Shown here piece after piece: positions 26,105 to 33,590 of a DNA stretch of 41,801 nt (positions are counted from its first letter, which is position 1; each line of letters opens with the position of its first letter). The position numbers and the translations under genes were made by a program. Origin of the DNA: an uncultured Bacilli bacterium (GTDB taxonomy: Bacteria; Bacillota_I; Bacilli_A; RF39; UBA660); NCBI GenBank assembly GCA_904374795.1, contig CAJFEV010000003.1:1-41801 (forward strand), written 5' to 3'. Below the pieces are notes generated by a model. That model was not told where the DNA came from. It saw only the letters and a list, made by a program, of their open reading frames with translations, and did no database searches.

Positions 26105-26127
26105 TTTATTAGAAGAGAGTGGTTATT

Positions 26128-26505
26128 TTGAAAAAGCTGAAAATAAATATTGCTTGTGGAGTTCTTGATATTTTAGCTTCTTTTTTATACTTTTTTTCGT
26201 TATTTTTAATTGGTACTTTTAATGGAGCAATAGGTGCATCTGATGGAACAGAAACATTAAGTCAAATGCTTTTAATCTTTGCAATTGTAGTTATTGTATT
26301 ACATATCGTGGCTTTTTTTCAATCAAAAAAGGTACATATTCGATTATTAGGCGTGATTTTTGGTTTAGTTGGAAACGGAATTTATTTGCTCTCTGGAGCG
26401 TATTTGGGCTGGATTGCAATGATTTTTACGATAATTGCCTCTGTCTTTATTTTAAGAGATAATCATTACTCTGTTTTAGATACTATTGAAGTAGTAAACA
26501 AATAA
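26128..26505 (+). CDS. DUF4064-like small membrane protein
   Basis: A 125-residue protein with four hydrophobic helices (about residues 5-27, 42-62, 72-90, 94-113), fitting DUF4064-type proteins. The function is unknown. TTG 26128 is preferred as start because AGAGAGTGG lies just before; an in-frame GTG is 9 bp upstream. A truncated copy precedes it, so the locus held a tandem pair. A strong terminator follows. Confidence 0.7.
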   Translation: MKKLKINIACGVLDILASFLYFFSLFLIGTFNGAIGASDGTETLSQMLLIFAIVVIVLHIVAFFQSKKVHIRLLGVIFGLVGNGIYLLSGAYLGWIAMIFTIIASVFILRDNHYSVLDTIEVVNK

Positions 26506-26539
26506 TTTCTTTTTTATGTATTTTGATTAATTGATTTGA

Positions 26540-26563
26540 AGTAGGTACATTACCTACTTTTTT
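26540..26563 (+). terminator. Strong terminator after the DUF4064-like gene
   Basis: Stem AGTAGGTA/TACCTACT (26540-26547, 26551-26558) with a 3-nt loop and six T. Confidence 0.9.
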
Positions 26564-26593: not shown

Positions 26594-26624
26594 TTGACGT
26601 GGGGGGGGGGTGTACTGATATAAT
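26594..26624 (+). promoter_or_regulatory. Promoter with a G10 tract in its spacer (probably phase-variable)
   Basis: TTGACG (26594-26599) and TATAAT (26619-26624, TG one base upstream) are 19 bp apart. The spacer is T, ten consecutive G (26601-26610), then TGTACTGA. Loss of two G would give the ideal 17-bp spacing. It drives the surface protein that starts 30 bp downstream. Confidence 0.75.
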
Positions 26625-26653
26625 AAAAATATCAATAGAAGGGAATAGAAAAA

Positions 26654-27523
26654 ATGAAACTTAAAAGATTTAAACAAAAAGATCCAAAGAAAACAGGAAT
26701 AATTTTATTTACTGTAGTTTGTGTACTTTTAGTAGCGGGAGTATTTTTTTATACATCTTTTGCGACATTCCAAGTACAAGAGGAGTTTAATATTATACAG
26801 GGAGAGGTACAAGATCCGGGAGATTTATATTTTGTTTTTTATGTAGATGGTGAGATAAGTAGGACTATGCCTCAAAAGGGTGATGGATATGTATTAGATT
26901 ATGAAAGTACAAATTGTACAAATGGTGCAAGTGTAGAATTAGATGAAAGTGATTGGTTTGTAAAAGTATTAAATATGACTATTACTAGAACTAAATGTAG
27001 TTTATATTTTGAAATTCCTGATGAAGTGATTTTGTATGATAATGGAAATAATTATGCTAATTTTTTTGGCAATAAAGCCATTGATGATTCATATGAGTAC
27101 ATTGGATTTGTTAATGAATATAGCGATAGTGAAGCTAGTCATGTACGTATTTGTACAACTGAAAATTTACATACAGAAAATTATAAATATCTTTATTTTC
27201 AAGTAGACTCTGGATTTCATGTTTCGGGAGGTTATACTGATGGTGTTAAATATTCTGAACCTATTTATTTGTACGAAACACAAGACTTGAATAAAATGTT
27301 TACCGTTGATTTTTCATTTGTTCCAGTTAGAACAGGTAGTTGGATGAGTGATTTAACTGAATTTTCTTCAATAAATCGATTTGATATTAACAATACCATA
27401 ATGGCTAATGGGTTTTGTATAGATTTTCAGGGAATTCTATCTACATTAGCTCCAGCTCCAGGATCTAGTTATCTTCAAATTAATATTTCAAAAATATGGC
27501 TTTCTAATTTAGAATATAGCTAA
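26654..27523 (+). CDS. Membrane-anchored surface protein with Cys-paired repeat domain
   Basis: A 289-residue protein with a cytoplasmic Lys-rich start, one membrane helix (about residues 15-35) and a long extracellular part. Residues about 55-122 form a domain with two cysteines (TNCTNGAS and RTKCSLYF) around GDGYVLDYES and WFVKVLN. The same pattern recurs in the protein at 32065-33590, so they are paralogues. Two more cysteines lie farther on (RICTTEN, NGFCIDF), making four outside the membrane. The ligand or role is unknown; exposure on the surface and the G10 promoter suggest an antigen or adhesin. A GAAGGGA site precedes the ATG. Confidence 0.75.
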   Translation: MKLKRFKQKDPKKTGIILFTVVCVLLVAGVFFYTSFATFQVQEEFNIIQGEVQDPGDLYFVFYVDGEISRTMPQKGDGYVLDYESTNCTNGASVELDESDWFVKVLNMTITRTKCSLYFEIPDEVILYDNGNNYANFFGNKAIDDSYEYIGFVNEYSDSEASHVRICTTENLHTENYKYLYFQVDSGFHVSGGYTDGVKYSEPIYLYETQDLNKMFTVDFSFVPVRTGSWMSDLTEFSSINRFDINNTIMANGFCIDFQGILSTLAPAPGSSYLQINISKIWLSNLEYS

Positions 27524-27532
27524 GAATCTTTT

Positions 27533-27580
27533 AAAAGAAATTGGTAAGTAATTGCTAATTTCTTTTATTTTGGGTATAAT
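27533..27580 (+). terminator. Terminator overlapping the pgk promoter
   Basis: Stem AAAAGAAATT/AATTTCTTTT (27533-27542, 27557-27566). TTGCTA (27552-27557) lies in the loop and gives a 17-bp spacer to TATAAT (27575-27580). Confidence 0.7.
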
Positions 27581-32064: not shown

Positions 32065-33590
32065 GTGAAAAAAAGATTGTTTTTTGGAATTCTTCTCGTT
32101 AGTTTAGTTATTTTTTGGGGTATGTTTAGCAAAAAAATACTTTAGAATATTTTATGAATAATGAAAGTATAGAATTAGCTGTGTATGTTAATAATGAAAA
32201 AATTTCGAATATTCCTCTTAAAGAGGATGGATATATTTTTGATAAACAAAATTCTAGTTGTACAAATAATGCTGTAATTTCTTGGGATAATGATACATGG
32301 AGTCCAGTTATTTTTAATATAAATAATTATCCAACTCGTTGTAATTTCTATTTTGGTGATAAAAGTTTTTGTGAAATAAATCCTGATACGACGGCATGTA
32401 CGTTGCTTGCTCAAGGAGCAACAGATGAATTGAGTTTTGATGATACTAAGGATAATAATTTAAGATATAATAACGAATTAGCAAATAATTACATAGATAT
32501 TGGTGAAGAATATTTATCTGATTATGAGGTTCTTTATATAAATATAGATACTTCTTTTATAAAAAATGCAGATGTAGATGCATGTGCTAAGTTTTATTTT
32601 GATCAAAATATTGTGGAAGGAGCCGATTTAGAAGATTATGGGATGATTTGTGAACAAATTCTTTCAAATTCGTTATTGGAAGATATAGTGAGTCAAATTG
32701 ATTATGTAAATAGCGGTGTTAATGGTTTTGATTATGAATTTTTATATGAATTTTTGTCGTCATATATTGATCAGATATATATTACGGCTTTAAATTTAAT
32801 TCAATATAAAAAAGTAGATAAGCCCTTATGGAAAATTGTAGGTGTTATGAATAATGTCGATGATGGTACAGGAAAATTGGAAACAAGATTGAAAGTTACC
32901 CGTGTTCAATCAATAGGTAAGTATAGTTGGGATACCTCAAATTCTACGATAAATAATGGAGATGGAATTAATGAATGGAGTCAAGCTGATTTGATGAAGC
33001 TTTTAAATCCAGGTTATGAGAGTGAAAGTGTTGGTGGAAGTTTATGGTGGAATAATCAATCGGGAAATTGTTATAATGGCTCGAATAATACCTATATTGC
33101 TTGCGATTTTTCAAATAGTTCTTTAGAAAAAGCGAAAGATTATATAAGTGATGCTGTATGGCATATTGGAACTGTTAGTTTGGAAAAATATGCAAATGCT
33201 GATAGTTATTCTATATATAATTTTGAAAGGGATCATACTATAGGAAAATCATGTGGTAGCTCTTTATCTACTTGTAATGATGATGTAGAAAGAACAGCCA
33301 CTTGGATAGGAAAAGTAGGGTTGGTGTATCCTAGTGATTATATGTATTTATCTCATCTCTTTGAAGTTAGCGCTATTCCAACTATAACTCCTATTTATAG
33401 AGATTATTCTAGTACTTCTGTTATCTTAGAGGCTACTGCTTCAGATATAAGTGGTTTCGATGATTTTGTCATTTTACCTTATGCTGCATCTCTGGATTTT
33501 AATATTTTCCCTACTGTTTATTTAGATGCGGATGTTAAATTTCTTTCTGGTAATGGAACTATTGAAGATCCTTATCAAATTGGTTTTTAA
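32065..33590 (+). pseudogene. Surface protein paralogue, out of frame at an A7 tract
   Basis: GTG 32065 behind AAGGAG encodes a signal segment (MKKRLFFGILLVSLVIFW) and stops after 26 codons at 32143. One extra A in the A7 tract (32131-32137) would join it to a 478-codon frame that is open from before 32154 to 33590. The body is related to the protein at 26654: DGYIFDKQNSSCTNN and TRCNFYFG match its Cys-paired domain. The C-terminal part has WIGKVGLVYPSDYMY and ends FLSGNGTIEDPYQIGF. The mature body holds ten cysteines. It is either a switched-off phase variant, expressed by slippage on the A-tract, or a recent pseudogene. The long open frame argues for recent or reversible loss. Confidence 0.7.

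Follow-up and report, generated by a model that had tools for sequence, protein, structure and literature searches.

The Vlp genes of mycoplasmas carry a homopolymer in their promoters, which is a poly-A tract, and they are clustered and encode lipoproteins. Vlp is a multigene surface family with combinatorial expression (reference listed in PMC11868660). Homopolymers placed between the –10 and –35 elements of the Neisseria porA and fetA genes were described as altering both spacing and transcription (PMC5320596, with reference to van der Ende 1995 and Carson 2000), and a 12G porA is listed as high expression (PMC4235727).

The promoter described here was found in a window of 41,801 nucleotides (the whole stretch of DNA that was analysed) and resembles those of porA (poly-G) and fetA (poly-C) in that the homopolymer is located between the –35 and –10 elements, and in that homologous copies with conserved flanks differ in tract length. 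The analogy with Neisseria drawn in a preliminary description of this DNA was apt (PMC5320596; PMC4235727), but the genome-wide and genus-wide extent of the system had been missed. However, porA and fetA are single genes of Gram-negative bacteria, whereas at least a dozen paralogues per genome were found in this AT-rich, reduced-genome relative of Bacilli, whose promoters present an extended –10 element, spacers of 19–22 bp in the genus and a hairpin embedded in the –10 region. The likeness to Vlp of Mycoplasma hyorhinis lies in a multigene surface-protein family with a conserved N-terminus and, by inference, combinatorial expression; the tract, however, is poly-G instead of poly-A, the window protein presents a predicted membrane helix rather than a clear lipobox or lipoprotein signal (no lipobox was evident by eye in its N-terminus), and the loci are scattered over the genome.

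It is proposed that the promoter is of the sigma-70 type and that the G10 tract makes its spacer variable: slipped-strand mispairing during replication would gain or lose Gs, altering how far apart the –35 and –10 elements lie (19 bp here) and hence how strongly a membrane-anchored surface protein is transcribed. With about twelve promoters of this kind in the genome, and the system being common in the genus, surface proteins would vary randomly from cell to cell. It is probable that poly-G slippage promoters vary surface proteins in this way, with the OFF state kept tight by a –10 hairpin or by a terminator; slippage in living populations and this guard function are themselves inferred.

The poly-G promoter and its gene

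At positions 26594–26624 the sequence reads TTGACG-T-GGGGGGGGGG-TGTACTGA-TATAAT, in which a single T (26600) separates the –35 element from the ten Gs and TGTACTGA (26611–26618) lies between the tract and the –10 hexamer (26619–26624). The hexamers, the tract and the 19-bp spacer claimed in the preliminary description were all exact on direct reading, but the extended –10 element had been missing from it (Table 1). A run of ten Gs had also been considered improbable by chance in AT-rich DNA, and both shuffles and an extrapolated expectation agreed on this. The window has 29.8% GC, a second-longest G run of 6 and a longest C run of 4, the G10 tract being its only run of at least 8 G or C; three overlapping matches to eight or more Gs were found against 0.03 expected, a number reached in 0 of 100 dinucleotide shuffles, and extrapolation from shorter runs gave 3e-4 expected runs of at least 10 G or C per window, or about 0.009 per 1.3-Mb genome.

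Table 1. Coordinates of the poly-G promoter, its gene and neighbouring features in the window
Feature	Position	Strand	Basis
–35 element TTGACG	26594–26599	+	Sequence read; TTGACNN-G9 layout also in 22/37 genus genomes
G10 tract, proposed slippage site within the promoter spacer	26601–26610	+	Sequence read, shuffles, genome-wide run counts
Extended –10 element TGATATAAT (TGA-TATAAT), 19-bp spacer to –35	26616–26624	+	Sequence read
Predicted transcription start, 7th base past –10	26631	+	Inferred from the standard –10 to +1 distance, unmapped
Ribosome binding site (Shine-Dalgarno) AGGGA	26640–26644	+	Sequence read
Terminator-like hairpin GAAGTAGGTACATTACCTACTTT and T run	26538–26560	+	1 found vs 0.1 expected in shuffles
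Gene of the 289-aa protein, ATG at 26654	26654–27523	+	ORF, profile and structure searches, structure model
pgk's own promoter, TTGCTA-17-TATAAT	27552–27580	+	Sequence
Second family member, without poly-G	32065–33590	+	ORF reading, comparison with relatives

The N-terminus of the 289-aa protein contains basic residues followed by a hydrophobic stretch, and a membrane helix was predicted at residues 11–37, in line with the earlier claim that the gene behind the promoter encodes a membrane-anchored product. The AlphaFold model (mean pLDDT 53.6) presented this helix and a beta-rich ectodomain, whose beta-rich module extends to about residue 120 (pLDDT ~80), the C-terminal half being of low confidence. 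From these predictions the product is taken to be a membrane-anchored surface protein, its surface exposure being inferred. No Pfam or NCBIfam family was found above cut-off, the comparison with solved structures gave no convincing match for a family name, a Foldseek search of the low-confidence ectodomain model against the PDB retrieved nothing at E≤0.001, and no match was found for the C-terminal region. A phage origin was rejected, since tblastn gave no match in 50,697 phage records.

The gene is located between gap and pgk. Read from the sequence, the predicted terminator-like hairpin shields the switch promoter from the gene preceding it (26119–26505), and because of this terminator and of the separate pgk promoter, the surface gene has the appearance of an autonomous insert. 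At the gap-pgk site of relatives no orthologous tract was found and the insert was absent; among the genomes compared, it looks specific to this one.

Recurrence of the layout in the genome, genus and family

The genome scanned comprised 1.30 Mb in 96 contigs (89% complete; the window is contig 3) and contained 17 separate G-tracts of 9–17 bases, against about 0.01 expected for tracts of at least 10. Eleven to twelve of these were preceded by TTGAC at the –35 position, nearly all of them being then followed by a –10 or extended –10 element (TGN-TANRAT), and the Gs were on the coding strand wherever the downstream frame was readable. The promoter-spacer tracts were mostly placed ahead of paralogues sharing the N-terminal module of the window protein and differing in their ectodomains. 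The genes outside this family were an ABC-transporter ATPase (C27) and a fragment of a cytosine-5 DNA methylase (C33, two tracts; PF00145).

The module, SCTN...W...C.L(Y/H)F, recurs in family members and was found in all 37 genus genomes, at 1–48 copies each and 17 in this genome. The family matches to the window protein end at about residues 120–165, and therefore the outer part differs between copies. As in Vlp, these paralogues combine a conserved N-terminus with divergent ectodomains, and many have their own poly-G promoter; members without one also exist in this genome (C41, C54). The second family member in the window has a GTG signal-peptide start (32065) out of frame with its 478-aa body ORF (32154–33590), and a mere G4 where sister genes carry long G-tracts. 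At the orthologous site downstream of gpmI, the relatives G015 (G11), G014 (G10) and G011 (G9) carry poly-G-promoter surface genes, with upstream flanks 90–98% identical.

The five other tracts belong to reading frames, lying within them or at their 5′ ends, either inside a signal peptide or ahead of it. As assembled, one of them is open (L034, G9) and four are out of frame past the tract (L032, L040, L037 near position 1689, and L039). They recall the reading-frame homopolymers of Campylobacter and Helicobacter in being located in the 5′ part of related coding sequences; here, however, such tracts are minor and are combined with promoter tracts in one gene family. The out-of-frame tract of L032 (C9, 3823) lies in the signal peptide of a protein with the DUF285 repeat (PF03382), which has been described as a Mycoplasma protein family. 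At the orthologous site of G015 (C9; L052/L331), about 30 bp of a poly-G promoter (TGTAAATTGACAT-G11) replaces the signal-peptide start up to the G-tract; either gene conversion over a short tract at the run of Gs or a chimeric assembly may account for this. On C33 (L038, 3823–3882), two tandem poly-G tracts of 17 and 10 bases were found in a 50-bp duplication, each after ATTGACAAT, 190 bp before the methylase gene, which is truncated by the contig end and represents a candidate phase-variable methylase.

The layout TTGACNNGGGGGGGGG (TTGACNNG9) was observed in 22 of the 37 genus genomes, with up to 20 occurrences per genome and no match of the reversed control pattern. In the family, it was present in 25 of 291 genomes and 19 of 150 genera, with up to 33 occurrences in one genome and almost no reversed-pattern controls. 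All 40 positive genomes among the 385 drawn from the order belonged to this same family, and when the rest of the class was scanned, 2 of 131 genomes were positive. A scan of named genomes gave many rabbit-gut assemblies called uncultured Bacilli or Clostridia, as well as scattered Helicobacter, Veillonella and Selenomonadaceae. In other genera of the family, prepilin-like proteins (GFTLxELLAV) were found behind TTGAC-G9/G10 promoters (L077 1507, L088 1508), which suggests, from the sequences, putative phase-variable pili.

Since many tracts are located close to the ends of contigs, the places at which repeats interrupt assemblies, they could be functionless, either mutational leftovers of decay and neutral expansion or assembly artefacts of repeated promoters. 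However, tracts of at least 9 bases are vastly over-represented, with coding-strand Gs and the right spacing, in many independent genomes, and two of them are conserved at orthologous sites between species, so that hardly any weight was given to this explanation.

Tract length and probable phase variation

The comparison of tract lengths across related genomes, which the preliminary description had put forward as a check, revealed differences of one base between orthologues and of 1–3 between paralogues. At an orthologous locus of G018 and G029, with 94% identity across 256 bp upstream, the local promoters were identical save for G9 (L350) in one and G10 (L358) in the other. The ABC-transporter ATPase, which is not a surface-family member, has its poly-G promoter conserved in two species (L036 in this genome, C27; L073 in G015), the spacers being 21 bp here and 20 bp in G015 with upstream flanks 99% identical. 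Among paralogues, the promoters L050 (G9) and L071 (G10) of G013 were near-identical with common flanks, the same-flank promoter sets within single genomes ranged over G8–G10 in G115 and G7–G10 in G387 with none shorter, and the L037, L041 and L043 group of this genome presented 11, 13 and 13 Gs followed by a nearly identical downstream leader. One-base differences between homologous tracts are what one-base slippage predicts. These lengths came from draft assemblies, one genome per species, without reads or transcripts, and homopolymer lengths in assemblies may be wrong by one.

A rival explanation is that poly-G is a fixed element, recognized by a regulator or sigma factor common to the family either as a conserved binding site or through its DNA shape (A-form or quadruplex-prone), its length being selected without phase variation. 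The very uniform tracts within single genomes (mostly G9 in G115 and G387) and the constant tract position relative to TTGAC are compatible with it. However, the lengths differ between orthologues and paralogues with identical flanks, the tracts inside the reading frames of related surface genes would make no sense for a promoter-binding role, and the bases surrounding the tract are free to vary from one genus to another, whereas the long, uninterrupted run of Gs is retained; a fixed element was thus regarded as improbable.

Phase variation is well supported, because of the tract excess, its recurrence in the genus and family and the length differences between homologues, and the earlier proposal of a slippage-tuned surface-protein promoter gains support from these comparative data; switching itself remains unobserved, and the case rests on sequences. 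Spacers peaked at 19–20 bp in promoters with an extended –10 element and at 16 and 19 bp in the others, and since they differ by promoter type, promoter spacing may be under functional constraint, as these values suggest. Tract lengths within one genome are narrow, mostly 9–11, a distribution that selection for one spacing would also give. Moreover, most spacers in this genome (19–25 bp) exceed the usual 17 bp, which may mean that many copies are OFF or only weakly active, or that the optimum is an unusual one. Judged by the usual optimum, tracts shorter than those assembled should be stronger, the ON length being undetermined and any ON/OFF assignment inferred. The absence of mismatch repair as a general cause of instability was ruled out, as 35 of the 37 genomes in the genus, this one among them, contain MutS_I; slippage is therefore not boosted by a missing MutS, and its rates need not be extreme.

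The –10 inverted repeat and its implications

In the IS10 transposase gene, fold-back inhibits translation in read-through RNA. A comparable arrangement was observed downstream of most poly-G promoters of the genus, as an inverted repeat with arms of 9–14 bp whose 5′ arm begins inside the –10 hexamer and whose 3′ arm either terminates with a T run or includes the Shine-Dalgarno sequence, often just ahead of the ATG. It was present at 56 of 80 genus poly-G promoters, compared with 3.5% of leaders after shuffling and 4 of 136 extended –10 sites that lacked G-runs and served as controls, and a similar layout was found in 7 of 46 leaders from other genera. Across 19 distinct leaders, 7 of 13 pairs had changed on both sides, which 0 of 500 shuffles matched. 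These leaders had been chosen as able to pair, which inflates the percentage paired and less so the compensating changes, and both the covariation and the frequency tests used related promoters that are not independent, making the p-values optimistic. The Type-2 hairpin alignment (A2) had too little variation for covariation to be demonstrable.

As in IS10, the 5′ arm is upstream of the gene's own transcription start, here a predicted one, and the hairpin would therefore fold in read-through RNA alone; RNA begun at the expected +1 lacks most of this arm, and the folding energy, averaged over all leaders examined, was –6.6 kcal/mol when the RNA came from read-through, compared with –2.0 kcal/mol when it had the native start. 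Unlike in IS10, the hairpin is attached here to phase-variable surface-gene promoters, a function that is inferred. It is envisaged that the hairpin blocks the translation or transcription of read-through RNA from upstream genes and cannot form in RNA begun at the switch promoter itself, and, acting solely on read-through RNA, it would ensure that OFF stays off. The hairpin is thus inferred to be a read-through guard against leaky expression of OFF genes, its effect on translation being without data. The window gene has no such repeat and is preceded by a terminator instead, which would take over the guard job at this locus. Of the 52 loci with the inverted repeat, 2 had an upstream terminator, compared with 5 of the 20 lacking it (one-sided hypergeometric p ~0.015, hand-worked), a figure merely indicative since the loci are related. 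The dependence of the hairpin on upstream gene orientation was uninformative, because almost all upstream genes are co-directional (65 of 72 genus loci).

The repeat spans the –10 element and the predicted start, the classical position of an operator, and it could accordingly be the DNA site of a repressor shared by the family. However, its arms vary in sequence with compensating changes; the departures from Watson-Crick pairing are mostly G-U, which are common in the repeat (UG in 11 of 19 leaders at one pair) and would not be favoured by an operator; a T run follows the repeat in most cases of this genus; and the repeat tends to be missing where an upstream terminator is present. An operator is therefore unlikely, though not excluded, and the RNA guard was preferred. 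In one group of promoters (L031, L033 at 9410, L037 at 12008, L041 and L043), a conserved leader separates the hairpin from a distant ATG, about 135 bp past the tract, and contains another small inverted repeat (ATGACATAATAAGTCAT) together with what may be a second promoter, with a role that is unexplained.

The chances were considered about even that these elements amount to genome-wide antigenic variation in an uncultured gut lineage of Bacilli type, with at least a dozen scattered surface genes under poly-G slippage promoters and a –10 hairpin that kills read-through alone. Such a principle has been described before, and what appears to be new is the lineage, the scale and the guard hairpin; in the library searched, no paper on phase variation in this lineage was found. 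Among the papers found, work on phase variation in gut commensals centres on invertible DNA (e.g., PMC11892184, PMC10939037), and the poly-G system suggests that an uncultured lineage follows another route, based on slippage. Ordinary metagenome reads would suffice to follow it, as tract-length spectra per host would indicate which surface proteins are likely to be ON. If true, stochastic switching would be combined with a built-in insulator, and even genes inserted downstream of an active operon, the glycolytic cluster for example, would keep a tight OFF state. Should the hairpin in the –10 region be confirmed, it would represent a compact design for an insulated switch and would account for the avoidance of leaky read-through where genomes are small and dense.
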